Shown here piece after piece: positions 23,341 to 59,361 of a DNA stretch of 64,000 nucleotides (its first letter is position 1; the number at the start of each line of letters is the position of its first letter). A program made the translations under genes and the position numbers. Source of the DNA: Tetraselmis striata (Eukaryota; Chlorophyta; Chlorodendrophyceae; Chlorodendrales; Chlorodendraceae); the NCBI GenBank assembly GCA_006384855.1, contig VCJN01000555.1, positions 1-64,000 of the forward strand, in the 5' to 3' direction. The notes under the pieces are model-generated. The model saw only the letters and a program-made list of their open reading frames with translations. It did not search any database and was not told where the DNA came from.

Positions 23341-23577
23341 TGCACATGTGCGCAAGCATGTAAAGGAACGCGCGCGTAACCGTCATCTTCAGCAATTCAT
23401 CGTTTGCACCTTGCCAATGCGATATTCTTACCAATACCTAAACTATGGGGCAACAACGGCGCGGCAAGCACCACCCCCGAAGGCACCGTCGGTGGGTGCG
23501 CAAGGGGCGCACCGCCGGTAGGTCGTCAATGGCGCATGGAGACAACCTGCGAGTGAAATCGCCCAGAACAGTAATTA

Positions 23578-23593
23578 AACCTATTTTGCACCG
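23578..23593 (+). repeat. Left terminal inverted repeat, 16 bp
   Basis: AACCTATTTTGCACCG is exactly complementary to 39299-39314. A second TTTTGCACCG follows 19 bp further in, and then TAGGGTTTG, which also has a counterpart near the right end (TTAGGGTTTGGGGG on its minus strand). Confidence 0.6.
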
Positions 23594-23763
23594 TGGAATT
23601 CATTTTGCACCGTAGGGTTTGTTTATACCCTAGTTCCCGGGTCTACTATCAGTACTTAAGACTCACTGGTGATGTAGCTTGGGTTTGTAGACCTTGGGTG
23701 CAGTGCAGCATTCACCAGCGTGCAGGCCAGCCGCGACGCATATCCAATGTTGGTTTTGGAGCA

Positions 23764-23783
23764 TTTTGTCCAAAATGGGACAA
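23764..23783. promoter_or_regulatory. GTCC-N6-GGAC palindrome 1
   Basis: TTTTGTCC-AAAATG-GGACAAGA, about 190 bp inside the left end and 73 bp beyond the stop of the transposase gene. It probably serves as a binding site for an element-encoded protein. Confidence 0.5.
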
Positions 23784-23855
23784 GATGAGGCAATGAAATC
23801 AGTATTTATTATGATGATTACATCCAGCGGCTAGCCATAAGACGTTGCTGATAGT

Positions 23856-26800
23856 TTATTCGTTGAGCATCCCCAACTCAAGCAAGTCCTTCTTCGTGTC
23901 TGCGTTAAACTTGACGACTCCGCCGGGTTTGCGTTGCGCTGGGGTGGTTGACATGACGTGGACGCAGTTGTTTCGTGGCTGGCTGATTTGCCACCCAGTT
24001 TGCGCATATGTCTTCACGACTTGGACGCTTTTACCGTACCACTTCTTTCTGACCATGGTGCCGTCCTCGTTGAACACCTCTCGACTTCCCGACGCGTCGT
24101 GGATGGCCTTCGCGTACGATAGGGGGACGGCTTCAACACGCTTCCAAGGAAGCGTCAGGCACTTCTCCCAGCTTGTGTCAACTGGCTTCTTCCCTCCTTT
24201 TGTCTGCGCGTACAACCATAGGCGCATGAGGGGTTTGCCCTTTGCATCGGCATGGAAGGGCTCGTATACGGCCACGGTCAACGTGTCTTCGGTGGTCTCG
24301 CGCGACTTCACAAGCCCGATGACGAATCTCGACTCCCAATCACCAAGAGTTTCAGGACACTTGTCTTCCTCATGCACCTAACGATGGCCAAGACCGCGAG
24401 CTATGTTAGTCCCGAGCGAGACGCCACGCCATTTTTGTCCCGGTTGGGACAAAATAACAAGCAAGGAAGATGGACCAAACTGTTTTGTCCCGTAAAGGAC
24501 AAAATGACAAACAATGGGACTCACATCGGAGACGTCGATGACAACGAGGTTCGAGCCCTTTGCATCGCTGGGATCTGTGTTGTCATGAAGCCTCTCCTTG
24601 GCGCCGGCGTGAACTCCCCGGAAGGCGCTGTCATCTTGAAGCACTTGAGCACGAACCTCGGCTTCAACGCGAGCGGCTTCGGCATTGTTGAGGTCTGCGT
24701 TGGTAGCCATCGTGTGACGTGCCTCAACAGGCGCGATCTGCCCGTGCTCGCGCAAGAAGTCGTCAACTTCCTCTTTCCGTTGCGGCCAGATCCCGGAGAA
24801 AGCTGCCGAAGGAGCAGTTTGCATCTCATCCAAGTCGTCGAGCAGATTCTTCCAGCTCTCGCGCTCGACTGGGGAGAAGTGCCACCGGACCGCCAGGTCC
24901 GGGATAAGACGACCTGACCTTCTTGAAATCATCCAAGTACCTCTGGACCTTCACCGCGTCGGGCTTCTTTTTGTCGCAGAGAGCGTACCAAAGGGGCCGG
25001 CCCGCACGAATCTCGGGCGTCCCAGTTGGCGCGCTCTTCAAGATTTGCACGGGCTCAGAAAGCGGTGTGTTGGACCACAAGGCGGTGCGCAACGAGCCGC
25101 CAGACGCGGCGGCGTCGTCACGGGTGAACTCGAATTTGTGCGGCTTACTGATGTCATGAACGTGATCTTGGAAATGGGGCCTTAACCACTCAGAGAAGTC
25201 GAGGGAGAATGAGAGCTCAGCAATCTCCGGACTGGGCGAGAATGCCTTCGCCACCAAGTCAAGAAAGGCCTCGATTGTGTAGGAGCTGCGAGATAGCGCA
25301 AGACTGATGCGGCTGAAGATCTGGTCAACCCGTTCGTGAGTGTGCCCGACAGGCAAGAAGACCAAATGAATGACGTCGCGGATGCCGATGGACAAAAGCC
25401 AATTGCATAGGGCCGCCACGTTCCTATTCTTGTTCTCCCTGACGGTGTTGTCCATCTGGATTCTGATGTACGGAATCTTTCTACCACGGTGTTGAATTTC
25501 CTGCATCGCAAATCAGATTTCATCAGTCCATGGCTACCGGACAACCACGGCGAACCTATCGGGAGGCTAACGAGCTCACCTTCATGATCGTGATCCATAT
25601 TAGAGTGCACGTCGTGGACGAATCGTGGGGGATGGTGTTGGTGTAGTAGTAGATGTCGTCCGGGCGGTATCCGTCGTACTTCACACAGGTGAGGTGGTAC
25701 TTGAGGAGCATGTCGGGCTTTACAGTCTTGGGGATGCGAACCCAGTGAGGCAGCATGGTCTTCGCGGAGTCCATGCTATCAATTTCGAAGAAGAAGAAGT
25801 TTCCATGGCCAAGGCGCGACTGGAAGACGGCGTTGTTCATAACCCTTCGTTCCTGGCGCACTCTCTCGAGGTGTACCTTCTGCTCGGCGCTGACCTGACG
25901 CCTCACCAACTGCTGATGTTGACGGTGCACTTGACGTTCCTCTGGCGTCATGTCCTTTGTGCAAATCTCGCGAGCTTGGTCTCTGAGTGCTTTGCCCGCC
26001 GCGCATATGGGACAGTGGCTGAATCGCTTCACCTTCGGCGTGGTGACATCCGGGAAGTCTTCTTTCCAAGTCCGGCGGAAAGTGTCGAACGATGCGAGCT
26101 TCACTTCGCTCTCGGTAGTCAAATCTACAAAGGGGCAGGGGCATGATAGGTCGGTATACAAATAAGGTCTCATAATGCGAGATAGAAAAGTTCGGTCTAA
26201 AGTGGGTCGAAATAATTATATAGATAGTGGGTGAATAATTATGTAATCAGCAGGGCGAAACAATCTGTCATCACTGTGACGAAACGGTGTGTCAATAGTG
26301 GGACAAAACCGTCTCTCAACAGTGGGACAAGACGTTCTCTCTGCAGTGGGACGATATCGGCTAATTATGTGGGACAAATACGTTTGTGGTCGGTGGGACG
26401 AAACGGTATGCCATGAGCGGTGCGAAACGTTCTGTCAACAATGGGACGAAATCGGTCCAGCGTCGGTGGGACTAAACGTTGTGGCGATAGCGGGACGAAA
26501 CGGTTTGTAAATAGAGGGACGAAACGGTTTGTCATCAGCGGGACAAAACGGTTTGTCATCAGCGGGACAAAACGGTCTCTCATCAGTGGGACGAAACGGT
26601 TTGTCATCAGCGGGACAAAACGGTATGAAATTAGCGGGACAAAACGGTTTGTCATCAGTGGGACGAAACGATTTGTCATCAGCGGTGCGAAACGGTTTGT
26701 CATCAATGGGACGAAACGGCCTGTATGTCATCAGTGGGACTAAACGTTCTGGCGATAGCGGGACGAAACGGTCGGTCATCAGTGGGACGAAACGGTTTGT

Positions 26801-27861
26801 CATCAGCGGGACAAAAACGGTATGTAATTAGCGGGACAAAACGGTTTGTCATCAGCGGGACGAAACGGTTTGTCATAAGCGGGACAAAACGGTTTGTCCT
26901 CAGTGGGACAAAATGGGCCTCACCACGGAGAATGGCGTTGTCGTCCTCGGCCCACGACTTGTAGTAGTAGTAGACGCAAATCTTGGTCATCCAGGGAGGT
27001 AGGTGCTTCTTGAAGGTCTCGCTGTTGCCGTCGTGAAAAGGCATGATCTCGACGTGACCGAGGTCATCTGAGAAGAAGTGCTCGAGAAACATGCGCACAT
27101 GCTCCCTCGGTCCGGTTTGTTTGCTCTCGTATTGCTTGCGCCGCCTGATGTACGTGGGTTCGTTATCCACCACCGACCGCCGGATCACGAGACGTCTGCG
27201 TTTCGAGACCTGATGCAAGACCTCCCACGCACGCCCACACGTGTAGATGGGGCCTCGATGATCGAAAGATCGCAAGTAGCCACCGTGATCGAACATGTAA
27301 TCGAACTTGTCGGATGCCGACTCGTACCCACCCCTGAGAACCTGAGCGAGCCGGTCAAAGGAGCGGTTGTGATTGCCAGAGTATACGGTCAATGCACGGT
27401 CCATCACGGCATCAACGAGCGAGGGTCTCTCCGCACTGTGTGTATAGCTTGTGCACGCACTTCCGCGAACAGCACGGCGACTGCTCGCTAGCCTCCTTGG
27501 CGAGCATGAGGCGGATACAGTCGCGAGAGGTGCGCTTGCTGATCAGAGACGAGACCTTGCCTATACCGCTTTTGGCGACCTCATCGGAGCCCTTGCCCCA
27601 CGTGTACTTCCTTTTCTCAGGCTCCTTACGATCACTAGCACGCGCGTCGCAATCACACGAGTACCCGCTGCGGCACGAACACGGCGGTAATGTAACTGTA
27701 GTATCCGACGCGCCGGATCCTGGAGAAGAGGCCATGCTTTCGACCGCCGCCATGCTCCAGCGTGGGGGCGAGTGGGGGGAGGGGGTGAAGGACTGTGATC
27801 TGTGGTGAGGAAGACTGACGGCCGATGACCGTTCTCGGACGGGTTGTTGACCGGGGTGCAT
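23856..27861 (-). CDS. DUF7869-type DDE transposase, 5 blocks, intron-split
   Basis: Read leftward: start ATG at 27861 or 27753; exon to 26924; intron 26923-26125 holding a 24-bp array; exon 26124-25580; intron of 79 bp; exon 25500-24525; intron with palindromes 2 and 3; exon 24377-23856. Phases agree at each junction given. The N-terminal part has a Cys-rich segment (SPCCSRKCVHKL). The middle has a Cys pair (FSHCPICAAGK). The catalytic-type region has FEIDSMDSAK (~25770), QMDNTVRENKNR (~25440) and LPVGHTHERVDQIFSR (~25335). These are the signature blocks of DUF7869 proteins, an RNase H-like DDE family common in transposons. Two one-base phase slips (near 27415 and 24917) mean it is slightly decayed or carries sequence errors. 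It should act in the nucleus on the element's ends. Confidence 0.75.
24433..24454. promoter_or_regulatory. GTCC-N6-GGAC palindrome 2
   Basis: TTTTGTCC-CGGTTG-GGACAAAA, perfect 8-bp arms, inside the last intron of the transposase gene. Spacing is identical to the other four sites. Confidence 0.55.
24483..24504. promoter_or_regulatory. GTCC-N6-GGAC palindrome 3
   Basis: TTTTGTCC-CGTAAA-GGACAAAA, perfect arms, 50 bp from palindrome 2 in the same intron. Confidence 0.55.
26276..26915. repeat. 24-bp minisatellite array 1 (intron of the transposase gene)
   Basis: About 26 units of the 24-bp repeat (core GTCATCAGYGGGACRAAACGG) lie wholly within the intron 26125-26923. Many units here have GGGACAAAA, the half-site of the terminal palindromes. 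The left third is more diverged. Confidence 0.9.
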
Positions 27862-28291
27862 AATATCCGGCTACGGGTCAAAATAATTGATGACACAAAT
27901 ACCGAATTATTTCGTGTTTCTTTCGTATGTCGGTAATAGTTCTATACTAGTAAGTACACCCGAATCCAATCCAAGGAATATATCATCCCATGAAGGAATA
28001 TTATTGCCACGCCACTGTACTCTCGTACCGTTATGGCTCTCGAGTAGGGAATATTTTATCTTCCAGTAATAGTAAAAATAGTCGCAGTAGTTAGCCATGT
28101 ATATTCGTCGCGGAGCAAAATACATGAACCTGATGACGACGACAAGGTGCACTACAGTGCGCGCACGCGCGCCGTTGGTCCAGCAGGGGTCAGAGCGGCG
28201 GCAGACAGAAACCACGTCATTTCCACCTCTCCCTCACCGCTTCCCACCAAGAAACCCGCTCATCTACCGCGTCAACCTACCTACCGCCAGA
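27862..28291. promoter_or_regulatory. Shared divergent promoter gap
   Basis: About 430 bp separate the ATG of the leftward transposase gene from the ATG of the rightward gene. The sequence is AT-richer than its surroundings (for example around 27895-28090) and has no long frame. It is the only place from which both genes can start, so it is inferred to be a bidirectional promoter. No TATA box can be assigned with confidence. Confidence 0.45.
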
Positions 28292-31200
28292 ATGGCGCCG
28301 AAGAAGAACGAGCCTGCCAAGGACAAGGAAGACAAGGACGACGCCACCCCACGTGAGTTGCGCGCGCGTATAGTAGCTGCCTGCCTGCTCGACGCGTGAT
28401 GCGGCCAGATCTAGCGAGCTCGGTTAGGGTTCCCTTTAGAAGCAGTGTAATCTAGGACCGCTCGAGGTGTAGGCAGACGAGTGGAAATAGAAACCCAAAC
28501 GAGACGAGCGGCATCAGGGTCCTGCACGGTAGTATTACGTCCCGTCGAGGCAGCAGCAGCAGGTTCAGTAAGGATGCTAATTGGTGGTGGGAGGGGGGTG
28601 AAGGTGGAGGGCGGCCAGGTGGACCCTGTGCCTGTACTCCGCCGTAAGGAGTGGTTTAATATAAGTGTGAAGCGCAGTACTTAAAGACAAAATATTATTA
28701 AACCGCAGTACATAATGTATTGGAAATAGTTCTGTCATCAGTGGGACGAAACGGTCTGTCATCAGTGGGACGAAACGGTCTGTCATCAGTGGGACGAAAC
28801 GGTCTGTCATCAGTGGGACGAAACGGTCTGTCATCAGTGGGACGAAACGGTTTGTCATCAGTGGGACGAAACGGTATGTCATCAGTGGGACGAAACGGTT
28901 TGTCATCAGCGGGACGAAACGGTCTGTCATCAGTGAGACGAAACGATCTGTCATCAGTGGGACGAAACGGTTTATCATCAGTGGGACGAAACGGTCTGTC
29001 ATGAGTGGGACGAAACGGTCTGTCATCAGTGGGAAGGAACGGTCTGTCATCAGTGGGACGAAACGGTCTGTCATCAATCGGACGAAACGGTTTGTCATCA
29101 GTGGGACGAAACGGTTTGTCATCAGTGGGACAAAACGGTCTGTCATCAGTGGGACGAAACGGTCTATCATCAGTGGGACAAAACGGTCTGTCATCAGTGG
29201 GAGGAAACGGACGAAACGGTCTGTCATCAGCGGGACGAAACGGTCTGTCATCAGCGGGACGAAACGGTTTGTCATCAGTGGGACGAAACGGTCTGTCATC
29301 AGTGGGACGAAACGGTCTGTCATCCGCGGGACGAAACGGTTTGTCAACAGCGGGACGAAACGGTCTCATCAGTGGGACGAAACGGTTTGTCATCAGTGGG
29401 ACGAAACGGTATGTCATCAGTGGGACGAAACGATCTGTCATCAGTGGGACGAAACGGTTTGTCATCAGTGGGACGAAACGGTCTGTCATCAGTGGGACAA
29501 AACGGTCTGTCATCAGTGGGACAAAACGGTATGTCATCAGTGGGACGAAACGGTATGTCATCAGTGGGACGAAACGGTTTGTCATCAGTGGGACGAAACG
29601 GTATGTCATCAGTGGGACGAAACGGTCTCATCAGTGGGACGAAACGGTATGTCATCAGTGGGACGAAACGGTATGTCATCAGTGGGACGAGTCGGTCTGT
29701 CATCAGTGGGACGAGTCGGTCTGACAGAATATGATATTTATAGGTCGAAGGTCCAAGCGGACATCAAAACCTACCGAGAAAGCAAAAGAATTCGATGCGC
29801 TCGGAACGCTAATCGGGAGAAAACACAAGGCGTCATCTTTTGTGCCCGAGCAGCCGGCGGCGAAGAAGAGCCGTGCAGCCTTAGCTTCTGCAGCGAGAGC
29901 GGGCGCTGAGGCATCAGGTGACTCCTGGAAACCGAGCCTTTTAGGAGGTAGAGTGCCGGTTTACGGCACGCACTCGCAAGGAGAAAGATCGGCCGCGGCT
30001 CTTTTGAGGGCCCGAATCATGAGCGGCCAAGTCCTCTCAGATGCTCAAATGCAGACAGCGCGAAGGCTAATCGATTACGAAAAGCTCATGCAAGCTTACT
30101 ATCAATCAGGTCCTTGCCTCTCCAATCATATGATTTTTGTGAGTGCACTGTGTCATATTGACATTGTTTGAAATCATGTGTGTTGACAGGTTCGAAAGGA
30201 CGCGCATATGAGCCAGTAGCGACTCAAGCTTCGAAGGAATCCAAGGGAAAAGAAAAGATTTCAGAGACGATTGTGACTCCAGGTAATTGTGACTGAAAGT
30301 ATCAATCCCTGCCTTCTCACTCCCTTCGATTAATTTCTCGTCAGTGAGTTATCTGACGTTCCAACATGTCGTCAATTGGCGCAGGCAACCGCGTCGCAAG
30401 CAGCCGGTAAATCGGGATCCCCAGGTAAAAAAATCACGCCTGGCTTTGATGGTGTATGGCGATACCGTTCAGTAGTTAATCGTGACGCCCACTGCAGGTG
30501 TGTTGAGTACTCTCTACTCATTCTTTATAGGTTCCCCTACTCAAGGCTCTTCTTTGTCTAAAGGCCCGCCACAAGTACCAAAAACAGAGCCGAAGCATGT
30601 GCCCGATCCGGAGCCCGAGCCAGAGCCTGAGCCGGAGCCTGAAATAGAGCACACTGAGCCGGAGCCGGAGCCCGAGCCGGAGCCTGAAACAGTGCCCACT
30701 GAGCCCGAGCCCGAGCCTCACCATGAGCCTGAAACTGAGCCCACTCAGATGGAGCCAGAGCCGGAGCATGAACCGGAGCCTCAGCCCGAGCCGGAGCCCG
30801 AGCCTGAGCATGAGCCCACTCGGCTTGACCCGGAGCCTGAACCGGAGCCGGAGCCCGAGCGAGCTCGAGACTCCAGCGCCGACTACCGGGCAAGCGTCCG
30901 GTTCTGGACCCTCTAGTTCTCGACCCTCTAGCATCTCTTGCCGAGGCTCCGAGAAGAAGGGTTCCTGAATTCCTCAGCATGTGCACGGATGAAGAGGTCT
31001 TCGGCACAGAGGAAGAACAGAGGCAACGGGCGGCAGAGAAGCGTAAGCAGGCTCTCGACATCACCGGCACTCCTGGACCCGAGAGGAAGACAAAGCTGAT
31101 GACAGTCGCCTCTTACGACGACTTCTTTGACGAGAGGGACGGATCCCAAGAACATGACTCCTACAGCGACTTTACCTCAAGGAGCTAGACTATCCACTGG

Positions 31201-32607
31201 TTCAAGAACACAAGTGCCGAGGTACAGATCTATTTGTACATCGAGTTGCACAAGGCGAGCCTGCTGACTGGCAAGGACTTTTTCGATGATCCGAAGGGGC
31301 CACTTCTCGCGTGTATCGGAAAGATCAAGGACGTCGAGCTGGACTCGGCCGGAAACTACGGGGTGAGTAAAGCTTATATAATGTCTTTGAATTCGTGTCA
31401 ATTTCGTGTATCAATAAGTATTACTATTCTTATGCTTGTTACCGCAGATCTCTCTTGAACCTTATCGCTTGACACTGCACAAGGAGTTCAGGATCGATGT
31501 CAGCTTTGAGAGGTTGCTACTCCACGCGATCCAACCGCCACTCTCCTTCCAGCCGCGGTTCCAGTCTAACTACGCATGGACTTTGGTCGAGCGCAATGTG
31601 CTGTCGCAGGCGCTGAGAGGTTTCGCGTCTGGTCACATTGACATCGATGACTTGGCCAACATTGACAAGGATTTTAAGAACGCGCTTCCATACGTCGACA
31701 CGTTGGCCGTCCCGCCGGCCTTGAATGGCTTCCACCACACCGGTGCCGTCGACTGGATCTCTTACGGCCACCTCAGAGTCGAGATTGCTGATCCATGGGT
31801 GAAGACATCTCACGGTGGCGACATCAACACGTTATACGCCGACAGAGTCAACCTCGTCATCGACAAGGATACGGGGTTGCCTCACATTTTCAGCTTCCCA
31901 TCCGATAAGTTCGTCGCACCGCCGCCAGAATTTGAATTCCGATCCCCAAAGTTGCAAGACTGCAATATGGTGGCGCAATGCTACAAGGTAAAAGCCTATC
32001 GCGACATGTTGTACCTATCCGGATCAAATAGGTGTAGACAAATCTAAATCAATACACAAATCTAAATCAATACACAATGCAACTTACATTTCTCAGTGTC
32101 CTTTCCAGTGATTGCCAAGGGTATGACCTCAACGTTCAGGAAAGAGTATGAGGCCCTCGCTCTGACCATGGCCAACTTCAAGGAGCTAGTCGCAGCATTC
32201 GAAGGCGGGGAGAAGCCGAGGTTGGCGGATTCAAGTTCCTACAAGCCAGAGATCTACGTAATCATCAAGTTTCTGGGCGCCCACGGCGCGCGTCAAGCCA
32301 ACATCGACGGCAGCCACATACGGGAGGCGAAGCGCATGGTGAAAGAAAATTATCCGGAAATCTACAAAGCCAACAAAGGCATCCACCTCACGTCGGACAA
32401 GATGTACATCGGCCTCTCGCCGGAAGTCTGCCGCTACATGTCTATGAAGCTCAACGAGGCGGGTCACACCGTCGTGGGAGACACGCACGTCCATGCACAA
32501 ACTCCTGGTGAGCGACGCATTCTCCCAAATTATTATTAAGCTGACCGTAGCGTGGGAGCAAATAGGCGTAAAGTGTGTCAAAAGTCGTTCTGTCGTCACC
32601 GGGTTAA
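28292..32607 (+). CDS. Lysine-rich multi-exon protein of unknown function, copy 1
   Basis: Exon 1 (28292-28352, [17 protein letters not shown]) ends at a GTGAGT donor. An intron of about 1.4 kb holding array 2 follows. Exon 2 (29744-30109) encodes a basic stretch [24 protein letters not shown] and a helical end. Later pieces are 30190-30282, about 30531-31362 (Glu-Pro repeat, then [17 protein letters not shown] and [18 protein letters not shown]), 31448-32031 and about 32098-32507. An in-frame TAG (31186-31188) interrupts the third large exon in both copies. Copy 1 also has a 4-base insertion near 32485 and a rearranged last intron. No known fold is recognised. The position downstream of the shared promoter suggests it is the N-terminal part or partner of the methyltransferase-like gene. 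Confidence 0.5.
28731..29722. repeat. 24-bp minisatellite array 2 (intron 1 of the rightward gene)
   Basis: About 41 units of the repeat with core GTGGGACGAAACGGT, mostly exact, run to within 25 bp of the acceptor at 29744. The orientation of the unit on the plus strand is the same as in array 1, although the host gene there runs the other way. Confidence 0.95.
30590..30870 (+). repeat. Glu-Pro coding repeat
   Basis: Irregular GAGCCN hexamers encode runs of PEPEPEPE with interspersed His, Thr and Gln within an exon of copy 1. The matching stretch in copy 2 (about 34010-34290) is 6 bp longer. It probably forms an extended acidic linker. Confidence 0.8.
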
Positions 32608-32610
32608 AAA

Positions 32611-33146
32611 TATGTCTGTCAGTGGGACGAAACGGTCTGTCATCAGTGGGACGAAACGGTCTGTCATCAGTGGGACGAAACGGTATGTCGTCAGTGGGAC
32701 GAAACGGTCTGTCATCAGTGGGAGGAAACGGTCTGTCATCAGCGGGACGAAACGGTATGTCATCAGCGGGACGAAACGGTTTGTCAACAGCGGGACAAAA
32801 CGGTATGTCATCAGTGGGACGAAACGGTCTGTCATCAGTGGGAGGAAACGGTCTGTCATCATCGGGACGAAACGGTCTGTCATCAGGGGGACGAAACGGT
32901 CTGTCATCAGTGGGACGAAACGGTCTGTCATCAGCGGGACGAAACGGTCTGTCATCAGTGGGACGAAACGGTTTGTCATCAGTGGGACGAAACGGTATGT
33001 CATCAGTGGGACGAAACGGTATGTCATCAGTGGGACGAAACGGTCTGTCATCAGTGGGACGAAACGGTATGTCATCAGTGGGACGAAACGGTCTGTCATC
33101 AGTGGGACGAGTCGGTCTGTCATCTGTGGGACGAGTCGGTCTGACA
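32611..33146. repeat. 24-bp minisatellite array 3
   Basis: About 22 units lie between copies 1 and 2 of the rightward gene. The array joins the last intron of copy 1 to exon 2 of copy 2, with the same array-to-exon border as array 2. It is therefore the likely crossover site that produced the 3.4-kb duplication. Confidence 0.95.
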
Positions 33147-33163
33147 GAATATGATATTTATAG

Positions 33164-36060
33164 GTCGAAGGTCCAAGCGGACATCAAAACCTACCGAGAA
33201 CGCAAAAGAATTCGATGCGCTCGGAGCGCTAATCGGGAGAAAACACAAGGCGTCATCTTTTGTGCCCGAGCACCCGGCGGCGAAGAAGAGCCGTGCATCC
33301 TTAGCTTCTGCAGCGAGAGCAGGCGCTGAGGCATCAGGTAACTCCTGGAAACCTAGCCTTTTAGGAGGTAGAGTGCCGGTTTACGGCACGCACTCGCAAG
33401 GAGAAAGATCGGCCGCGGCTCTTTCGAGGGCCCGAATCATGAGCGGCCAAGTCCTCTCAGATGCTCAAATGCAGACAGCGCGAAGGCTAATCGATTACGA
33501 AAAGCTCATGCAAGCTTACTATCAATCAGGTCCTTGCCTCTCCAATCATATGATTTTTGTGAGTGCACTGTGTCATATTGACATTGTTTGAAATCATGTG
33601 TGTTGACAGGTTCGAAAGGACGCGCACATGAGCCAGTAGCGACTCAAGCTTCGAAGGAATCCAAGGGAAAAGAAAAGGTTTCAGAGACGATTGTGACTCC
33701 AGGTAATTGTGACTGAAAGTATCAATCCCTGCCTTCTCACTCCCTTCGATTAATTTCTCGTCAGTGAGTTATCTGACGTTCCAACATGTCGTCAATTGGC
33801 GCAGGCAACCGCGTCGGAAGCAGCCGGTAAATCGGGATCCCCAGGTAAAAAAATCACGCTTGGCTTTGATGGTGTATGGCGATACCGTTCAGTAGTTAAT
33901 CGTGACGCCCACTGCATGTGTGTTGAGTACTCTCTACTCATTTTTTACAGGTTCCCCTACTCAAGGCTCTTCTTTGTCTAAAGGCCCGCCACAAGTACCA
34001 AAAACAGAGCCGAAGCATGTGCCCGATCCGGAGCCCGAGCCAGAGCCTGAGCCGGAGCCGGAGCCTGAAATAGAGCACACTGAGCCGGAGCCGGAGCTCG
34101 AGCCGGAGCCTGAAACAGTGCCCACTGAGCCCGAGCCCGAGCCTCAGCATGAGCCTGAAACTGAGCCCACTCAGATGGAGCCAGAGCCGGAGCATGAACC
34201 GGAGCCTCAGCCCGAGCCGGAGCCCGAGCCGGAGCATGAGCCCACTCGGCTTGACCCGGAGCCTGAACCGGAGCCGGAGCCCGAGCGAGCTCGAGACTCC
34301 AGCGCCGACTACCGGGCAAGCGTCCGGTTCTGGACCCTCTAGTTCTCGACCCTCTAGCATCTCTTGCCGAGGCTCCGAGAAGAAGGGTTCCTGAATTCCT
34401 CAGCATGTGCACGGATGAAGAGGTCTTCGGCACAGAGGAAGAACAGAGGCAACGGGCGGCAGAGAAGCGTAAGCAGGCTCTCGACATAACCGGCACTCCT
34501 GGACCCGAGAGGAAGACAAAGCTGATGACAGCCGCCTCTTACGACGACTTCTTTGACGAGAGGGACGGATCCCAAGAACATGACTCCTACAGCGACTTTA
34601 CCTCAAGGAGCTAGACTATCCACTGGTTCAAGAACACAAGTGCCGAGGTACAGATCTATTTGTACATCGAGTTGCACAAGGCGAGCCTGCTGACTGGCAA
34701 GGACTTTTTCGATGATCCGAAGGGGCCACTTCTCGCGTGTATCGGAAAGATCAAGGACGTCGAGCTGGACTCGGCCGGAAACTACGGGGTGAGTAAAGCT
34801 TATATAATGTCTTTGAATTCGTGTCAATTTCGTGTATCAATAAGTATTAATATTCTTATGCTTGTTACCGCAGATCTCTCTTGAACCTTATCGCTTGACA
34901 CTGCACAAGGAGTTCAGGATCGATGTCAGCTTTGAGAGGTTGCTACTCCACGCGATCCAACCGCCACTCTCCTTCCAGCCGCGGTTCCAGTCTAACTACG
35001 CATGGACTTTGGTCGAGCGCAATGTGCTGTCGCAGGCGCTGACAAGTTTCGCGTCTGGTCATATTGACATCGATGACTTGGCCAACATTGACAAGGATTT
35101 GAAGAACGCGCTTCCATACGTCGACACGTTGGCCGTCCCGCCGGCCTTGAATGGCTTCCACCACACCGGTGCCGTCGACTGGATCTCTTACGGCCACCTC
35201 AGAGTCGAGATTGCTGATCCATGGGTGAAGACATCTCACGGTGGCGACATCAACACGTTAAACGCCGACAGAGTCAACCTCGTCATCGACAAGGATACGG
35301 GGCTGCCTCACATTTTCAGCTTCCCATCCGATAAGTTCGTCGCACCGCCGCCAGAATTTGAATTCCGATCCCCAAAGCTGCAAGACTGCAATATGGTGGC
35401 GCAATGCTACAAGGTAAAAGCCTATCGCGACATGTTGTACCTATCCGGATCAAATAGGTGTAGACAAATCTAAATCAATACACAATGCAACTTACTGACA
35501 TCCATTTCTTGCATTTGTTATTCACAGGAATCCTTCCCTATCCGCCGAGAATTTCTCAGTGTCCTTTCCAGTGGTTGCCAAGGGTATGACCTCATCGTTC
35601 AGGAAAGAGTATGAGGCCCTCGCTCTGACCATGGCCAACTTCAAGGAGCTAGTCGCAGCATTCGAAGGCGGGGAGAAGCCGAGGTTGGCGGATTCAAGTT
35701 CCCACAAGCCAGAGATCGACGTAATCATCAAGTTTCTGGGCGCCCACGGCGCGCGTCAAGCCAACATCGACGGCAGCCACATACGGGAGGCGAAGCGCAT
35801 GGTGAAAGAAAATTATCCGGAAATCTACAAAGCCAACAAAGGCATCCACCTCACGTCGGACAAGATGTACATCGGCCTCTCGCCGGAAGTCCGCCGCTAC
35901 ATGTCTATGAAGCTCAACGAGGCGGGTCACACCGTCGTGGGAGACACGTCCATGCACAAACTCCTGATGAGCGACGCATTCTCCCAAATTATTATTAAGC
36001 TGACCGTAGCGTGGGAGCAAATAGGCGTAAAGTGTGTCAAAAGTCGTTCTGTCGTCACCG
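33164..36060 (+). CDS. Lysine-rich multi-exon protein of unknown function, copy 2
   Basis: This repeats 29744-32607 at an offset of 3420 bp (3426 after the Glu-Pro run). Exons are 33164-33529, 33610-33702, about 33951-34788, 34874-35457 and about 35528-35957. Here the acceptor CACAG|GAATCC at 35528 is intact and joins in phase to a donor at 35457. The last exon reads [19 protein letters not shown] and [18 protein letters not shown] through SMHKLL. The donor used by copy 1 after that point (CTG|GTGAGC) reads CTGATGAGC here, so the two copies have decayed in different places. They share the in-frame TAG (34612-34614). No family recognised. Confidence 0.5.
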
Positions 36061-36070
36061 GGTTAAAAAT

Positions 36071-36226
36071 ATGTCTGTCATTGGGACGAAACGGTCTGTC
36101 ATCAGTGGGACGAAACGGTCTGTCATCAGTGGGACGAAACGGTTTGTCATCAGCGGGACGAAACGGTCTATCATCAGCGGGACGAAACGGTTTGTCATCA
36201 GTGGGACGAAACGGTCTGTCATCAGA
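36071..36226. repeat. 24-bp minisatellite array 4
   Basis: About 6.5 units lie between copy 2 and the methyltransferase-like gene, in the same orientation as the others. The first unit follows GGGTTAAAAATATG, the same junction that starts array 3. Confidence 0.95.
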
Positions 36227-36547
36227 GGTACAATCGTTTGGAATTTTAAAATCGGTGCAATTGTTTCTGCAGAACCTTCGCCGATGTTTCGAGAGCTGGT
36301 ATGCAGATCAGGATGCAACTCGACCGGCTTTAGGGCACTTCCGCAAATCAGAGTCGTGAAGGAGTTCAAGAAGTCTGAAGTTCTTTAAGTTGAACTTGAG
36401 AAGATCGGCATCAAAGATGAGACATCAAATTTGATGAGACATCAAATTTGATTGACCTTTGCTCGCGCCCACAACGGTAAGCTGTGTACATGATGAAAAT
36501 TTATCGTGTTGTTAATGCTGCTAGATTCTGACAATTGATTTGCGCAG

Positions 36548-39055
36548 TGTTTTTGAGCCCCTTGAGCAGATTTCTGAAGCCTACCGGCATGTGGATCTCG
36601 GGGTTCGAGGATGGGACGAAGCCAGAACCAAACTCGGAGACCTATTTGTGTACTACAAGCAAGAACTCGATAGAGTCGAGCGTCCCAATTACGGCAGGCA
36701 ACTCACCCAGAAGGAAGTGAGGAAGGTTTACGAAGCAATTCGGAAGCCTATCAATGCAATCCTCGATAACAAGAAGTACGGCTTCGGCAAAGACAGAGCT
36801 CACTTCCGAGTCGCCCTCATGGAGGTAAGTTGTGACCGACCCCAGTGTCTTAATCACATGGAATACTATCAGTCCTTTCTCCGTACTGAAGTTTGTTTTT
36901 CGACCCAGGATGTTGGCTTTGGACACTATGCGCCCTGGCTAGACGAGCCGTCTCTTGCCAAGCAGTGCGACAGCGCGGATCTCCCTGTGGGCCAGATGTA
37001 CCTGGTGGTTGGACTGCTCATCCAAGGCGAGCACAGTGTGACCCCTTGCCTCTACGAGTTGGTGGATGACCTAAAGCATGCCGGCGACAAAGACCCCATG
37101 GCTGTTACGCACACCAACACGGAGTGGCTCGCGATTATTGAGACCTGGAGGTTTCGCGATCTCTTGCGTCGAGCAAGCATCAAGCTCATGAATGCCATTG
37201 ACACGGCAAAGGGCAGAGAGGCACTCCAACTGCTGACGCCGGACGAACCGGCCAGGAACGGGGGAAATATCTCTTGGACCACATCATCGAATGGGATGTG
37301 GAAGACGATGTGTCGGATGAACAAGCGGCCGCTCGCCTTGACGCCATCACCAAGTTCCGAGCCAATGTTGATGACCTCGGCCCAACAGGCTTCCCCAGAA
37401 AGTTCCAGGATTTGTTCAAAGGTGCTCATCGCTCCGGTCCTTTGATGGTCTTGCTGACCCCTCCGGCCGGATGGGGGGACATGAAATCCGCCGACTGTCT
37501 CACACCACTACCGGTTCGAGAGCATATCGCGGCCACCAACACCACCAACATGAGTGAGGCGTATCGCATCAAGAATCAGATGCCGGACTTGGTCATCGCC
37601 TTCTTCACAGAGTTTGCTCTTCTGGCATGTGCACCGGAGCTTATCGCGGTTTCCGCTCCGAATGTTTCTAATGAGCTGTGGATATCGATGAAGGTAACTA
37701 AGATCTTGTGCAACCACAAATGCTCTTCTGAATTTTCATTGTGAGCTATTAACCCGAATATGTTTTCTAATACACATGCCGAGGCACTTCCGGTGATGCC
37801 CAAGGGCTGGGAGGTCGACAAGGATGACAAGATCTATTTGAACATGGAGCTTTGCAAGACTTGCATTATGGAGGGGGACTTCAAGGCTCCCGCGACAAAA
37901 CAAGCCGTCGCGGACGCCATGTCGGCAGTTCGAGCAAAAAAGGCAACAATCTTCATTGTCGACACGCTTTTCGGAGCTGGTTCGCACACATGGGACTCGA
38001 AGGATGCTGCGTGGGGTACGGACGACTTCAACGACGTGTTTGCTTTCGCCAGGCAAGACACCCTCCACAACCCCGGTGCGTAGATGACTGTGCTTTCATT
38101 TATCTCATTCCCGATTTTCCCCGCGCAGGCATTTGAATATCCTGACTGGATCTTCTGACGTCCACACTGCTCTCGATGGGTGCCATTTCTTCATTCACCT
38201 CTCGGACCAGCAACTTGGATCCGCAATCACAACCGTTCAAAAACAAGCTGAGGACCTCATCTATCACGTCCTGACTTGGGCCAAGGATTGCGGGATGAAG
38301 ATGGGCAGTTCTCTGCGTCACGACGCTGAGTACTACCTCTACGTCAGGAAGCCCCCGCCAAGCATCATAGCTGACAACATCCGTTTCGATGATCCCCGAA
38401 GGTGAGATTTGATCCGTGGAAAATAGCCGGCTTGTATTTATTAACTCGCTAAGCCGGTTGTGCCTTTCCAGGTTCTCTACATCCATCATGTTGGGTCACT
38501 TCAAAGACTCTGCCAAGTTGAAGGACGAGAACAGACAAACGGTGAACAAGTACCAAAAGCCTATCGCTCTCTTCGCCAAGCACCTAAAGATGGCGGCAAC
38601 AGACGGGACAACAATCGTCGACGTCACAGCCGGAACCGGGACAACCGTGGTGCGTGAGGGGTGCAACCCGGGTGAGTGTCTTAATGGGATCAACATAAAA
38701 AATTAACGCCTTGTGCGGTTTGCCACGCCTTTTCCAGGTCGCTGCGGCCTTTTCCGTGTGGTGGGACCATATGGATCATAGCTACTCGTTCACACACAGA
38801 AACTTGAAGATGATCCTTATTGACAACCAGAAGACGCAAATTGATGGGATGAAGTCCGGGATGACCTCATGGTTCAAAGAGAAGCCATGGGACGAGACTC
38901 AAAGACTGCGTCCAAATGACTTCGAGAAGTGGCCGGGTATACCCCTTCCAATGACCGTGGTAGAGGAGTTCGCAGAGCGTCTTGCGGCGGAGAAGAGGAG
39001 GCAAGAGGCGGCAGATCGTCGAAGGGATTATGTGATCGAAGATGATGATATGTAG
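36548..39055 (+). CDS. Permuted (beta-class) N4/N6 DNA methyltransferase-like protein, multi-exon
   Basis: Exons 36548-36824, 36909-37693, 37784-38075, 38129-38401, 38472-38649 and 38738-39055 have standard GT-AG borders; most join in phase. The N-terminal ~350 residues are unrecognised. The methylase-type region then runs in the order of the permuted class. First comes FIVDTLFGAGSHTWD at the motif IV position, then FFIHLSDQQLGS and LTWAKDCGMKMGSSLRHDAEY. YQKPIALFAKHL follows, equivalent to the usual HPTQKP helix, and motif I is DVTAGTGTTVVAAAF, split by the last intron. NLKMILIDNQKTQIDGM closes it. The cofactor-binding end is well kept, but the DPPY-type tetrapeptide is altered (DTLF), so activity is uncertain. 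Phase slips near 37262 and 38129 suggest early decay or errors. An additional upstream exon (about 36250-36475) is likely but interrupted. Confidence 0.7.
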
Positions 39056-39085
39056 TACAATTCCGCAAAATTAGCCGCTCATATG

Positions 39086-39107
39086 TTTTGTCCCAGTTTG
39101 GACAGAG
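39086..39107. promoter_or_regulatory. GTCC-N6-GGAC palindrome 4
   Basis: TTTTGTCC-CAGTTT-GGACAGAG, 31 bp after the stop of the methyltransferase-like gene, near the right end of the element. Confidence 0.5.
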
Positions 39108-39164
39108 TTTCAGCCCCCGATGGCGCAAACTTCTTATAACCATCCCGTTTCCTTCACTGTTTTG

Positions 39165-39186
39165 ATTTGTCCCTGTTTGGACGGAA
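39165..39186. promoter_or_regulatory. GTCC-N6-GGAC palindrome 5
   Basis: ATTTGTCC-CTGTTT-GGACGGAA, 79 bp after palindrome 4 and about 130 bp inside the right end. The arms are diverged but the GTCC-N6-GGAC core and spacing are kept. Confidence 0.45.
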
Positions 39187-39298
39187 TTGGTTTCCCCGAC
39201 TTGGCACAAAATGAACCAACTGCCATTCATATTAGCTTTCAATCCCGCTGCTGCCCCCAAACCCTAATTTAGACCTAATCACAATGCACCGCGTGCCT

Positions 39299-39314
39299 CG
39301 GTGCAAAATAGGTT
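39299..39314 (-). repeat. Right terminal inverted repeat, 16 bp
   Basis: CGGTGCAAAATAGGTT is the complement of the left end. An inner GCACCGCG copy of the motif lies at 39286-39293. The bases beyond (GCATTAC) do not repeat the left flank (GTAATTA) directly. Confidence 0.6.
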
Positions 39315-39791
39315 GCATTACTGTTTGGCGCGACCGAGCCACCCAATCGTAGTTGCGTCGTCACACACAACTTCGTTACAGCGTTATATACATATCATTC
39401 TATGCCGCGCGCCCCCGTAGTAGCGTCCGCTGGACCCGCCATCACTGAGTTGCAACTGCCCATCGCGACCCCGACGGCACCCGAGCCCCTAAGCTCCGAG
39501 AGATCATGCCCATAACAGTGCTTGCGTCTGAGCATGCCGCTGCTGGTTGTCGTCAATGCCGCTAGTCGTGCAAAACTGCAAATACTTGTAGACGGAGACG
39601 CAGGTATATGAAGACAACCCCCGCGCACGCAGGCGGCACGACGACCGCGGTGTACTCGTTCAGTATATGGTATGACCTCGCGAGCCGTCGCTACAAAGTA
39701 CATGTACATGTACCAGTAGTCGCTAGTGCCCTTTGCAGCTAGCTCATGTAACTATTAACATTATTTACATGAGCTAGCAGCAGAAGGCGGT
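39315..39791. other. Unassigned region
   Basis: No gene recognised. It contains a perfect-looking inverted pair AGCTAGCTCATGTAA / TTACATGAGCTAGC near 39737-39778 and nothing else of note. Confidence 0.4.
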
Positions 39792-40009
39792 ATGATCTAA
39801 ACGTGTTTATGGGGTTTCCTACGGATTAAAACTGTCCTAGTGCGACCCGTACGGTCTGTAGTGCTTTCAAGCGGTTAAGTAACTGTTACCATCGGGTTTT
39901 GGCACGGGCTGCCCCATCGCCCGCGAGCCCTGCGCTCCCGGCCGGGGAGCTACTTAGGACAGCCACCAGCAGTTCGTCTGCCATCTTCCAGCTCGCTGCC
40001 TTCGGCAGC
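39792..40009. repeat. 218-bp dispersed repeat, copy 1
   Basis: This matches 52069-52286 in the same orientation with a handful of differences; both start ATGATCTAAACGTGTT and end CTTCGGCAGC. The pair brackets the gypsy insertion at a distance. It carries no ORF of note. Confidence 0.85.
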
Positions 40010-40132
40010 GGCTTCGCGTACTTGTGCGCGCGAGGGTCATTGAGGCTGAACAAGTCCGCACCGAGGTTCATCCACCCGGTAGTGAGTCGTCGTGCCGCGC
40101 ATATGCGTTACATCAAGCAGCGACAGACAGCC

Positions 40133-40545
40133 TGTTATACTCCATTTCCCTTTAGCCATAATGTTCTGCTATACTAGCAGGTATAACTCCCCGCAAAGGT
40201 AGTACGACTACGCATCCGCGGAGTCGCTGTACATATTAGTATTGCGGGCGTAAATATTAGTAGTATAAGGCCGAGGACTGTTATGGAATTCTCTAGAGTT
40301 CTCTGACTCAAGCCTTACGTGGCTAACACAGCACGGGTATCCCATGACACCCGGCTAACATAGCACAGGTATGACTATGACCTCGGCGGGTATAAATACC
40401 GCCTCGGACAAGTCTACTAGGTAGAATTCAGAGACAGAACTATAACCCAGGAACCCCTGTAACCAGAAGAGATTGGCCATACTTTCTAAATCCTTCCGCT
40501 GCATCCTAAAGGGCCTAAAGAACAGGCTTAAGCTAGAGCCTAACA
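40133..40545 (+). repeat. 5' LTR
   Basis: 413 bp, TGTTATAC...CTAACA. It contains the likely TATA box GGTATAAATACC at 40389-40400, a plausible transcription start shortly after it, and GC-poor flanks. Confidence 0.92.
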
Positions 40546-40584
40546 CTTGGTTTCGGAGCTTAGACAGCGGTAAGCGACGTAAAG

Positions 40585-41745
40585 ATGGCTACACCAGGAG
40601 AGACGCCACCTGAGGACAGCGGAAGCTTTCGGGTAGCGGCCACTGCCGGCGAAGCACAGCCGATTCCGCTCGAAGGAGGTCAAGAGGGCACGCAACCGAC
40701 CCTCGTAACCATGATGAGCATGCTTCAACGACTAGCCGACCGAGTCGAGACTATGTCGACGGAGCAAGCGAGGATGCAAGATGTAGCGCAAGCTACAACG
40801 GCGGCAACGGCGGAGATTCGCCGCTTGGACGAGTACGTGCGACAAGGCTTCAGTCATTTCGACGACCGAGTGAACCGGAGCCGAGTTGTAGAGCAGCAGA
40901 TGCGAGACCAGCTTCGTTCTGCCCGGACCAGCGACATGCCTGGGCTCATGCCGAGTGATGTGAAACCAGCGAAGATCGAGAAGCTATCGACTACGAATAT
41001 CGACGAGCTACGGAACTGGTTTCGTCATGCACGGGGTTACCTGAAATATCACAACGTAAACCCGGAGGAACATCGTAGCGTGTACTGGGCATCTGGCTAT
41101 TTTCATGGACCCGTATCCAAGTGGTGGTACGCGCAAGTGGCGAGTACGCACGACGAAATTGGCGGCGGTTTTACCGGTATTACGCACATGGAGGCGGCAC
41201 TAATCACCGAATTCTGTGGACGTACACCGGCGAAGCAAGCTCGTATCAATCTGGATCGCGCGACACAGCGGACTACAGTACAGAAGTACGCGAATTATTT
41301 CCGCGAGCAACTGCTGGAGTTACCCCATCGTCACGAGGAAGATAATGTACATGACTTCCAGCGCGGACTGAAACCCCATATTCGAAAGGAAGTTGTCCTG
41401 AAAAACCCTAAGACCCTGGCAGAAGCTGTACAGGCAGCTCTGGCTGTTGAAGCTGCGGAGCGGGAGACAGATGTGCACCGCGAGATCCGTTGCGAGCGCC
41501 TAAACATCATGGACGACGATGGCGACGACGACGAGCAGTACTACTGCAGTGCTGAGGGTGAGGCTACAGAACAAGAAGACGACCTGTTGATGGCGCGGCG
41601 ATTGACCGAGGAGGAGTTTGAGAGATTTAAGAAGGAAGGTCGCTGCTTTATCTGCAGGGCGAAAGGTCATGTTGCGTCCGCGTGCCCGAGCAAGAAGAAG
41701 AAGATTTCTGAATATCGACCCAGAAAGACCCGGCCGGGAAACTAA
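40585..41745 (+). mobile_element. gag region of the gypsy element
   Basis: A frame of 386 codons: N-terminal coiled-coil-like segment (residues ~50-110), a retrotransposon capsid-type helical domain around residues 140-300 (NWFRHARGYLKYHNVNPEE, ISKWWY-like core), an acidic linker (DDDGDDDEQYYC) and one CCHC knuckle CFICRAKGHVASACPS near the end. The start ATG at 40585 lies 39 bp after the LTR and is the natural first ATG. Confidence 0.9.
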
Positions 41746-41885
41746 GACGTGAGTCGGCCGCGCGCGGCGCGCGACAGGGTGAAGGACTGTCCCCTAAAAC
41801 GGCTCGCGAGACTACAGAAGTACAGCCCTCGTATCCTCAAACGACACTGAGGTCTGATTTCCTCCACAAGGATTTCAGCGACTGG

Positions 41886-43018
41886 ATGGTACATCGCGAA
41901 TTATTTCACGAGTACACGAAGAAATACGGACCCTGCGACCTGGACGGAGCTTGCGATAATGACGGCCTGAATTCTCAAGTTTCTGGTAGTTTTTGCTGTC
42001 CGACGCGCCCATTTCAGGAACATGATCTCGGAGAATATCGGCGTATTTGGCTAAATGCCCCGTATGACCGAATTGAAGAATTTTTGGGCCACTACCTTCG
42101 ACAGAAGTTATTGCATCCGCATCTACGAGCAATTATTGTGGTCCCAAAATGGTCGCGTAAGCCGTGGTTTCGACTACTTAGAAATTTTCGTCTGGTGGAT
42201 GAGTTGCCAGCGGAGACTTCTGTGTTTACGTGCCCAACGAACGATGGCATAGAAGGTGCGAGACAAGATGTTGGCCCCACTCGATGGGCAACACAGATCT
42301 ACGCTGACGATGGCGCCGGCGTACGGTTTCTACCGCAGCACCTGAGAACCCCACCGAAGCCTGAGTGGACGCACTCGAAGGTTCTAGTAACCGATGGAAG
42401 ACGAGTGCTTCTGACTGTAGAAGACAGCGGACTGATTTGGTTTCCGGAAGGCAAGCGCGGCGACACGGACGCGACGCCGGAGACAACAGCAGTACGACGA
42501 TTACTCGAGCAAACTGGGTACCGGGTACAGGAGAGCAATCTACGGTACCTCGGCACTCAGCGGACGGGAGACAACCGGTGTCCTGTATACCTGTATCGCG
42601 CTCGTCGTAATACTGTACCTGAGAAGACCCCTTTGAACCGTGCACTATGGACAACCTGGAAGAAATTATTGGAGGCACGAAGTACGGGTTATCTGGAGAC
42701 GGAGACAGTACGCTACCCACTACGGTACGAGAGCTTCGGCGAACAAATTGATGAATATGTCAACCGTAACGTCCGACTACCGCCGGGCGAAGACTCCACA
42801 TCGCGTTTGTGCAACGTATCTTCACCGAGTGGTACCCGACTGCTGACTATTACTGGCGAATTGCGAGGACGACACTGTAAAATACTGGTGGACTCTGGAG
42901 CAACCGAAAATTTTGCGAGTACCGAATGGGTGCAATTGCATCAGTGCCCTACAGTATCCGGAGGAAAACACCGTATAAAACTGGCGAACGGCAGTATGAG
43001 TACCAGTACCAAACGGCT
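41886..43018 (+). mobile_element. pol region, left part: Dam-like, Nudix-like, protease
   Basis: Residues ~1-110 resemble the phage-type N6-adenine methyltransferase (Dam) fold: YGPCDLDGACDNDGLNSQ, IWLNAPYDRIEEFLGHYL and IIVVPKWSRKPWFRLL. Around residues 160-260 is a Nudix-like domain (KVLVTDGRRVLLTVEDSG, then ETTAVRRLLEQTGYRV in place of the Nudix helix). The retropepsin-type aspartic protease begins at VDSGATENFAS. Such additions upstream of protease are unusual for Ty3/gypsy elements. The domain names rest on motif resemblance. Confidence 0.6.
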
Positions 43019-45755: not shown

Positions 45756-45772
45756 ACCAGTACCAAACGGCT

Positions 45773-48700: not shown

Positions 48701-49168
48701 CTCGCCAGTTGCTTTCCGATTGCAACTACCTGCGGGCGTACGAGTCCACGACGTGGTGCACGCGAGTATGCTGGAGAAGTGGTATGACGACCCTGACCAA
48801 CCGGCGAAGTCTGAACGAGTACCGATTGTCCACGACGCAAACCGATTCCATGTTCAGGACATACTCGATGTTGCCTTCAACAACAATGGCACTGGACTAC
48901 TGTTTCGAGTGCGATGGGCGTTCCCGTACAACGTACCAAGCGAAGACACCTGGGAGCCCCTACGCGGAGTCAAGCACCTGGACATTTTCCGGTTGTTCTT
49001 ACTGTCTAAACCATACCGACAGTTTACTGAGAGCCCAGACTTCATTCGGTTCCGGAATCGCTACCCAAGCCGAGTACCTTCCGCCTGAACTTCAAAATCA
49101 AGACTGTAGTTTCCTGTAGTTCTGTGACACCTGCACAGCGAGGACGCTTGTGCTTAAGGGGGAGAGAG
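45773..49168 (+). mobile_element. pol region, right part: RT, RNase H, integrase
   Basis: The main frame, 45813-49088 (1,091 codons), carries a reverse transcriptase with FVRKKDGTLCMCVDYRKLN and the catalytic YLDDVLIYS, RNase H (YTLYTYASGFAVGAVLLQ through VHEQELLAVRDALIKF), and an integrase. The integrase has its HHCC finger (VRRCPTCQRTKAARH), the catalytic core (ISLDLITDLPE, AFHPATDGQTERTNQ) and a C-terminal chromo-like tail (FRVRWAFPYNVPSEDTWEP). This is the typical Ty3/gypsy order. Confidence 0.92.
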
Positions 49169-49581
49169 TGTTATACTCCATTTCCCTTTAGCCATAATGT
49201 TCTGCTATACTAGCAGGTATAACTCCCCGCAAAGGTAGTACGACTACGCATCCGCGGAGTCGCTGTACATATTAGTATTGCGGGCGTAAATATTAGTAGT
49301 ATAAGGCCGAGGACTGTTCTGGAATTCTCTAGAGTTCTCTGACTCAAGCCTTACGTGGCTAACACAGCACGGGTATCCCATGACACCCGGCTAACATAGC
49401 ACAGGTATGACTATGACCTCGGCGGGTATAAATACCGCCTCGGACAAGTCTACTAGGTAGAATTCAGAGACAGAACTATAACCCAGGAACCCCTGTAACC
49501 AGAAGAGATTGGCCATACTTTCTAAATCCTTCCGCTGCATCCTAAAGGGCCTAAAGAACAGGCTTAAGCTAGAGCCTAACA
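49169..49581 (+). repeat. 3' LTR
   Basis: 413 bp, same ends as the 5' LTR and nearly identical throughout. It is followed directly by the target duplication CAGCC. Confidence 0.92.
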
Positions 49582-51119: not shown

Positions 51120-51355
51120 CGACACTGTGGCAGTCTCAGCCGGATAGAGACTGCAGGGACAAACAAAGGTGGTGTGCAGTGGTGGTGCAAAGGCGAGAGG
51201 CTACAGTGTTTTTCAGCATAGAACAATTGTTTAACACAACGCTAACCACACGGCAGCATTATACAGTACATATACTCGTAGTCCCAGGTACACATTGTAC
51301 TAGTACACACAGGTACTAACTCGTAGTATATCGTACTCGTATAATTGTCACACTA
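51120..51355. repeat. Dispersed repeat, matches 19669-19910
   Basis: It shares CAATTGTTTAACACAACGCT through GTATAATTGTCACAC with the copy 31 kb to the left, with small differences at the left end. Confidence 0.7.
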
Positions 51356-51855: not shown

Positions 51856-52068
51856 CACGTCCGGCCTATGTCGTGCCGGCGTCAACATCTCCCGTCCGCG
51901 TATGATGCGCCTGCGCCTCGATCGAAGACCTCTTGGCGCGAGACCCCTTCTACAACTGAAGACATCTTCCGCCTTCGTCTGGTCGGCACGCCTTCCGACT
52001 GCCTACGCTCGCAGTCGTAAACGAACCGCGTGTAAACTGGCAAAACCAGACTCGAATGCAAGATTGAA

Positions 52069-59147: not shown

Positions 59148-59171
59148 AAATTGCAACGCCATATTGCAACG
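59148..59171 (+). repeat. Harbinger left terminal inverted repeat
   Basis: 24 bp beginning AAATTGCAACGCC, exactly complementary to 62696-62719. GAC directly precedes it. Confidence 0.92.
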
Positions 59172-59361
59172 CATAATATACCGCCACGTCGCGCGGTGTC
59201 CGAGTCATGATGTAATCGTTACAACTGCTGCGGGTATATACCGGTACCGGCGCCGGCATGCGTCACATCACCCTGCCGCCACCACCCTTCTGGCAGCTCA
59301 CAATCTTTCGCGCCCCACGCGACTTCACGCGGGTAATCGCTACAACCCTGCACCCTACGTC

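Follow-up and report, generated by a model that had tools for sequence, protein, structure and literature searches.

We analyzed a window of 64,000 nucleotides from the green alga Tetraselmis striata (assembly GCA_006384855.1, contig VCJN01000555.1, positions 1 to 64,000), which contains a mobile element at positions 23567-39325. The element is bounded by terminal inverted repeats of 27 bp, identical at 25 of 27 positions (left repeat 23567..23593 on the plus strand, right repeat 39299..39325 on the minus strand), and the boundaries of other copies coincide with these two ends. Between the repeats lie two divergent, intron-rich genes, both modelled by hand: a four-exon gene on the minus strand (26924-27753, 25580-26124, 24525-25500, and 23856-24377), the product of which contains DUF7869, and a 14-exon accessory gene on the plus strand (28292..39055), the last portion of which (36909..39055) encodes a permuted N4/N6 DNA methylase. 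The initial annotation of this DNA, made from the letters alone, had described these two genes in the same way and had placed them in a single mobile unit of approximately 15.7 kb with 16-bp inverted ends. This inverted repeat does exist, although the element actually extends 11 bp beyond it on each side. The size holds for the long copy in the window but is atypical of the family; this copy contains a 3.4-kb internal tandem duplication.

The genome (224 Mb) was searched with the end patterns of the element, allowing up to two mismatches. The results revealed 282 left and 323 right matches, and the reversed controls yielded none. Pairing drew on the perfect ends among the matches listed (96 left and 100 right ends were compared; four listed left ends, on contigs after C1376, were dropped so that both lists spanned the same contigs), and at least 36 of these left ends paired with a correctly oriented right end less than 30 kb away. 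The spacing was 10.5-15.9 kb in 28 of the 36 pairs, including 18 at 12.0-12.65 kb; of the remaining eight, four measured 7.1-7.5 kb and the others 3.8, 9.2, 27.6, and 28.0 kb. The unpaired ends may have partners with mismatches or may result from contig ends, truncation, or nesting. The four copies of 7.1-7.5 kb (on C70, C200, C586, and C48) are perhaps internal-deletion derivatives, and the one on C70 retains a DUF7869 match inside its span. On contig C42, three right ends of the same orientation were located at 103238, 117808, and 132315, approximately 14.5 kb apart, with no perfect left end between them among the matches listed; these are possibly tandem copies.

We then compared the flanks of eight copies for which both sides were available, the window included. 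A perfect 4-bp target duplication was present in five of the seven other copies (C24, C48, C1376, C1757, and C238), and the remaining two matched at three of four bases (C687, GGAG/GGCG; C884, CGTA/TGTA). The transposase-side sequences of the window and the 24 best-matching fetched copies differed by a mean of 0.9% (range, 0.07-2.6%); here, as in the comparisons of the methylase side and the palindromes, the copies were the best matches to the window rather than a random sample. With inverted ends, 4-bp duplications in most copies tested, and hundreds of ends, the element is a cut-and-paste DNA transposon family of T. striata. The single mobile unit proposed in the initial annotation, with its two genes, its pair of ends, and the palindromes, recurs genome-wide. 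An Rfam scan of the element returned no matches.

The product of the left gene matched DUF7869 (PF25273) in Pfam with an E value of 3.4e-34. In the window, this gene carries a 1-bp frameshifting insertion near 24908 that is unique to the window among 25 copies. Annotated proteins of T. striata (Tetstr1) were up to 98% identical to the DUF7869 protein, and among the approximately 8000 candidates scored per search, distant relatives outside Tetraselmis numbered three, at 20-27% identity (two metagenomic and one from Symbiodinium). Neither element protein had a relative in scans of viral contigs, sequence searches of the PDB gave only two irrelevant matches (E 0.74 and 0.85), and a literature search on DUF7869 found no papers. 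The structure model of the protein was of low confidence, with a mean predicted local distance difference test score (pLDDT) of 34.5; the order of strands and helices around the conserved D residues nevertheless resembles an RNase H fold. A Foldseek search with this model retrieved mainly Argonaute chains, which are RNase H-like (best E 0.014), and placed the Mos1 transposase at rank 33. From this model and the structure of the element, we infer that the DUF7869 protein is probably the DDE transposase responsible for cutting at the element ends.

The accessory gene was read in the copy on contig C24, where the model encodes 1559 amino acids without an internal stop. In C24 itself, both splice dinucleotides of intron 9 have been lost (TT...AT); of 23 rows compared, 22 show GT at this donor and 18 show AG at the acceptor, and all 23 use a GC donor at intron 11. 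The window version contains exons 2-6 and most of exon 7 in duplicate, and its exon 10 is 1 bp short (785 bp versus 786 bp in C24). All 14 homologues of the accessory protein among 7989 scored candidates came from Tetraselmis, and annotated Tetstr1 proteins were 74-93% identical to it. Outside the methylase part, Pfam, NCBIfam, and PHROGs gave no convincing domain; a ParB-like domain, in particular, had no match up to E 1 in these collections.

The methylase assignment is supported by several profiles. The methylase part matched the phrog_67 DNA methyltransferase (4.8e-7) and the PADLOC type II methyltransferase profile (2.6e-7), and a tblastn search of phages with it gave no match. Against N6_N4_Mtase (PF01555), the window protein scored 22.4 bits and a second single protein 25.9 bits, both under the Pfam cut-off of 26.7, and yet all 59 listed element-type loci in the genome exceeded this cut-off, three of them only when neighbouring in-frame pieces were included. 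The motifs, which were recognised by eye, follow the permuted order IV, X, I, in line with the initial annotation: motif IV reads T-P-P-A-G-W near 37457-37474 and motif I reads D-V-T-A-G-T-G-T-T near 38620-38646 in the window, and motif I is VDVTAGTGTT in 18 of 25 loci. One annotated protein (P0007) has DPPARW at motif IV. In another (P0059, TSEL_005106), DUF7869 and the methylase C-terminus are joined; this fusion could reflect an error of gene prediction or a copy with a deletion.

The element also carries distinctive repeated sites. A palindromic pattern, TTTTGTCCC...GGGACAAAA, occurs near both ends, as had been noticed in the initial annotation. Three palindromes lie on the left, namely P1 in the subterminal region (23764..23785; identical in 24/25 copies) and P2 and P3 in the last transposase intron (24433..24454, with a perfect 22-bp core TTTTGTCCCAGCTGGGACAAAA in 19/25 copies, and 24483..24504, a pattern match). 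The other two are subterminal on the right; among the 22 usable right loci of 25, the motif was found in 16 right ends for P4 (39086..39107) and in 21 for P5 (39165..39186), the window included in both cases. These five sites deviate from the pattern at 0 to 4 of 18 positions, and the best other site in the window deviates at 5. With both strands counted, the sequence GGGACRAAA has 82 occurrences in the element and none in the rest of the window.

Tandem arrays of 24-bp units were detected with Tandem Repeats Finder on the plus strand in the respective first introns of the transposase gene (array 1, 26264..26913) and the accessory gene (array 2, 28731..29723) and between accessory exons 7 and 8 (array 3, 36078..36225), with an extra array between the arms of the internal duplication (32619..33143). 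The copy on C24 has the three corresponding arrays, at lengths that differ from those in the window. A frequent unit, GTYTGTCATCAGYGGGACRAAAC, is close to the right palindrome arm and partly like the left arm at the same spacing, the left-arm likeness being a post hoc observation rather than the result of a formal test; units typically depart from the palindrome pattern at 3 to 5 of 18 positions. The arrays had been described as intronic repeats of a half-site. They do lie within introns of the modelled genes, but their units carry a degenerate form of the whole palindrome and not the half-site alone. Genome-wide, the array unit occurs 1348 times, and its reversed control does not occur. Arrays 1 and 2, each in the first intron of one gene, thus lie on either side of the divergent promoter region, a position suggestive of an operator-like role.

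Whether the two genes travel together was assessed from 104 methylase matches, which were split by eye, according to profile range and stops, into 59 of the element type and 45 others. A DUF7869 match lay less than 20 kb from 34 of the 59 element-type matches and was on the opposite strand in all 34, typically about 9.7 kb away. Scoring covered 150 of 548 candidates for DUF7869 and 150 of 259 for the methylase, so this count is a lower bound. The numbering of annotated genes agrees with the co-occurrence: methylase and transposase proteins carry consecutive TSEL numbers, such as TSEL_018301/018302 and 006719/006720. The initial annotation would have failed had the transposase copies never carried the methylase or the palindromes, or had the inverted ends been absent from them; all of these were found in other copies, and co-occurrence of the two genes was seen in part of the family.

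The other 45 PF01555 matches (for example, those at C1010:99804 and C761:90499) had no scored DUF7869 match within 20 kb. Some were much stronger (C1010, E 6.9e-32), and 17 of the 45 have nearly equal scores and cover almost the same stretch of the profile (54 to 196-198), which suggests a second repeated methylase family. This second family could belong to integrated polinton-like viruses; the accessible parts of papers on such viruses mention T. striata.

To assess selection, each change was counted once per column, and the ratio of nonsynonymous to synonymous changes (N/S) was compared with 300 neutral simulations per set. Transposase exons 2-4 (25 copies) gave an N/S of 1.40 against a neutral mean of 2.61, and 0/300 simulations were as low. 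The methylase side was read at the 24 loci L027-L050 except L030 and L044, for which no orientation or bounds were found, leaving 22; the methylase half was uninterrupted in 8 of these 22 other copies, and 6 of the 8 keep all splice dinucleotides. For the selection rows, L036 was omitted as a duplicate of L035, giving 22 rows with the window. The eight uninterrupted copies gave an N/S of 2.03 against a neutral mean of 2.96, all 22 rows gave 2.14, and the 14 interrupted rows gave 2.16 (3/300 simulations as low). Pairwise ratios of nonsynonymous to synonymous rates (dN/dS) lay at 0.25-0.30 in transposase comparisons and at 0.60-0.63 in those of the methylase half. These results show signs of purifying selection on both genes, weaker and modest on the methylase; they are indications rather than formal tests because picking uninterrupted copies removes stops and because the copies are related.

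On the basis of sequence comparisons, we favor, with a probability of roughly 0.55, a reading in which this is a transposon with a DUF7869 transposase and a methylase whose proteins bind its own palindromes and arrays and mark its own DNA. The DUF7869 protein, as a DDE transposase, would cut at the element ends. With less confidence, we propose that an element protein, either the accessory protein or the transposase, would bind the palindromes near both ends. The same protein would also bind the arrays of degenerate sites in the first introns flanking the shared divergent promoter region. The methylase domain would then mark the DNA of the element, and this self-marking might control the expression of both genes or time transposition. 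Self-binding and self-methylation by the element are plausible. We are doubtful of a more specific version, in which the accessory methylase itself would bind the 22-bp palindrome and the arrays and mark only its own copies with N4-methylcytosine or N6-methyladenine, thereby controlling expression and the timing of transposition across the family.

Several results weigh against this reading. Foldseek found no match to the transposase model at E 0.001 or better; scans of the accessory protein against Pfam, NCBIfam, and PHROGs revealed no DNA-binding domain; and the structure model of the accessory protein had a mean pLDDT of 29, with no predictable fold. Both genes of the window copy are frameshifted. 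Selection on the methylase is the less clear, since 10/300 simulations were as low as the methylase core of the eight copies (N/S 2.06), and omega was approximately 0.69 for the uninterrupted methylase copies and 0.78 for the 22 rows, compared with approximately 0.53 for the transposase. Further adverse points would be expected if the accessory protein were a degenerate passenger and the arrays were minisatellites grown by slippage. The methylase half is interrupted in 14 of the 22 other copies, its exons and introns are almost equally divergent between copies (3.8% and 4.0%), and array lengths differ between the window and C24. Motif IV is unusual as well: N4/N6 DNA methylases usually have D/S/N-P-P-Y/F/W at this position, a form expected of an active enzyme that the element does not show, and TPPARW was found in 18 of the 23 loci in which the motif could be located (25 examined). 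The methylase activity is therefore uncertain. A passenger is nevertheless improbable in our view, given that the N/S of the methylase half fell below 300/300 simulations for the eight uninterrupted copies and 299/300 for the 22 rows, and that corresponding introns carry arrays in both the window and C24.

The methylase might instead counter host silencing or act on host DNA generally, as do other chromatin modifiers encoded by transposons, with the arrays and palindromes serving as unrelated binding sites of the transposase. Subterminal palindromes are where transposase binding would be expected, and epigenetic enzymes on other eukaryotic transposons are described in the accessible parts of two reports, namely TET/JBP in fungal DNA transposons (PMC12730594) and DNMTs in retrotransposons (PMC5890265). 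This explanation leaves the arrays in both first introns, and again inside the methylase gene, unaccounted for, and we regard it as possible but rather unlikely. We also considered whether a pair of adjacent, unrelated mobile elements had been mistaken for one. No DUF7869 partner was seen near 25 of the 59 element-type methylase matches, with 150 of 548 candidates scored, and the copies are more alike on the transposase side (0.9%) than on the methylase side (mean difference, about 4%). However, the 36 correctly oriented end pairs, 18 of them at 12.0-12.65 kb, and the 4-bp duplications that span the pair in most tested copies make this extremely improbable, and it was rejected on the paired ends.

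The window copy is an ageing copy of the transposon with its own peculiarities, including flanks (CCAG/TGGC) that match at 0/4 bases, a further point against the favored reading. Its 3.4-kb internal tandem duplication (29744..36080, plus strand; arms 29744-32600 and 33164-36080) is absent from C24, which has the region once. The lack of a target duplication and the presence of this internal duplication make it possible, though unproven, that copies exchanged unequally at an array, and the arrays do border the duplication. The two pieces of the arms are 98.5% and 98.1% alike, and the arms are nearer each other (~98%) than to C24 (about 94-95%); therefore, an older duplication in place is also possible. 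Moreover, C687, the second long copy among the pairs (15.9 kb), retains three of the four duplication bases. We give unequal exchange an even chance for this copy, and it is compatible with self-binding and self-marking by the family.

In IS10/Tn10, the Dam methylation state times transposition, and Dam is encoded by the host; unlike that system, the Tetraselmis methylase is carried by the element itself, and its action is a prediction. Sola-1 transposons have a 4-bp target duplication, which the Tetraselmis element fits, yet this length is not specific to Sola. It has also been reported for Sola2 in the accessible part of one paper (PMC3627910). The closest counterpart that we found is Sola1-1_Ec32 of Ectocarpus, likewise a large algal DNA transposon, which carries a ParB-like/N4C/N6A methylase accessory gene on the strand opposite the transposase; in the accessible passages, the authors suggest that proteins of this type could bind the transposon that encodes them and mark it, and they cite similar proteins in transposons of red algae and of green algae, the group to which the Tetraselmis host belongs (PMC12477816). 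The initial annotation knew of no described element with this combination, and that claim is not supported: the same kind of pairing occurs in this Ectocarpus Sola-1 transposon, and the kind is therefore already known. The two elements differ in length (21.5 kb in Ectocarpus, about 12.2 kb in Tetraselmis) and in the ParB-like domain, which is present in the 1104-amino-acid Ectocarpus protein and undetected in the Tetraselmis protein; arrays of palindromic sites are a feature of the Tetraselmis element and are absent from the passages on Sola1-1_Ec32 (PMC12477816). They are compared by description, and a shared superfamily is not implied. The fungal TET/JBP transposons similarly place a DNA-modifying enzyme beside a transposase, but as far as the accessible text goes, theirs is a dioxygenase acting on methylcytosine, accompanied by transposases of other superfamilies, and not a methylase (PMC12730594).

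A literature search found no description of this Tetraselmis element, most subscription papers being beyond its reach. The new aspects are the DUF7869 gene as the partner, the high-copy Tetraselmis family, the indications that the methylase is under selection, and the arrays of palindromic sites. Methylases on eukaryotic transposons are suspected of marking their own element, with no demonstrated case in the accessible passages (PMC12477816). This family is a good test case for a transposon that chemically marks its own DNA. Its copies are numerous, the best-matching transposase sides are on average only 0.9% apart, some methylase frames are uninterrupted, and the repeated palindrome is unequalled in the rest of the window; self-marking is therefore directly testable by long reads, and PacBio long-read data for T. 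striata presumably exist.

The window contains several neighboring features. A Ty3/Gypsy retrotransposon with gag and pol occupies 40126-49461, and its 300-nt direct repeats (40126-40425 and 49162-49461; 99% alike) are probable long terminal repeats. Two open reading frames lie between gag and pol: one of 454 amino acids (41886-43250), which has a NUDIX domain, a weak Dam methylase match under the cut-off (3.2e-4), and no PHROG match, and one of 816 amino acids with no Pfam match. A pair of 218-nt direct repeats (39792-40009 and 52069-52286; 97%) stands around this retrotransposon, 12.3 kb apart, and 251-nt tandem repeats occupy 51235-51987. A 448-amino-acid open reading frame at 59164-60510 matched DDE_Tnp_4 (3.9e-20), another transposase family.

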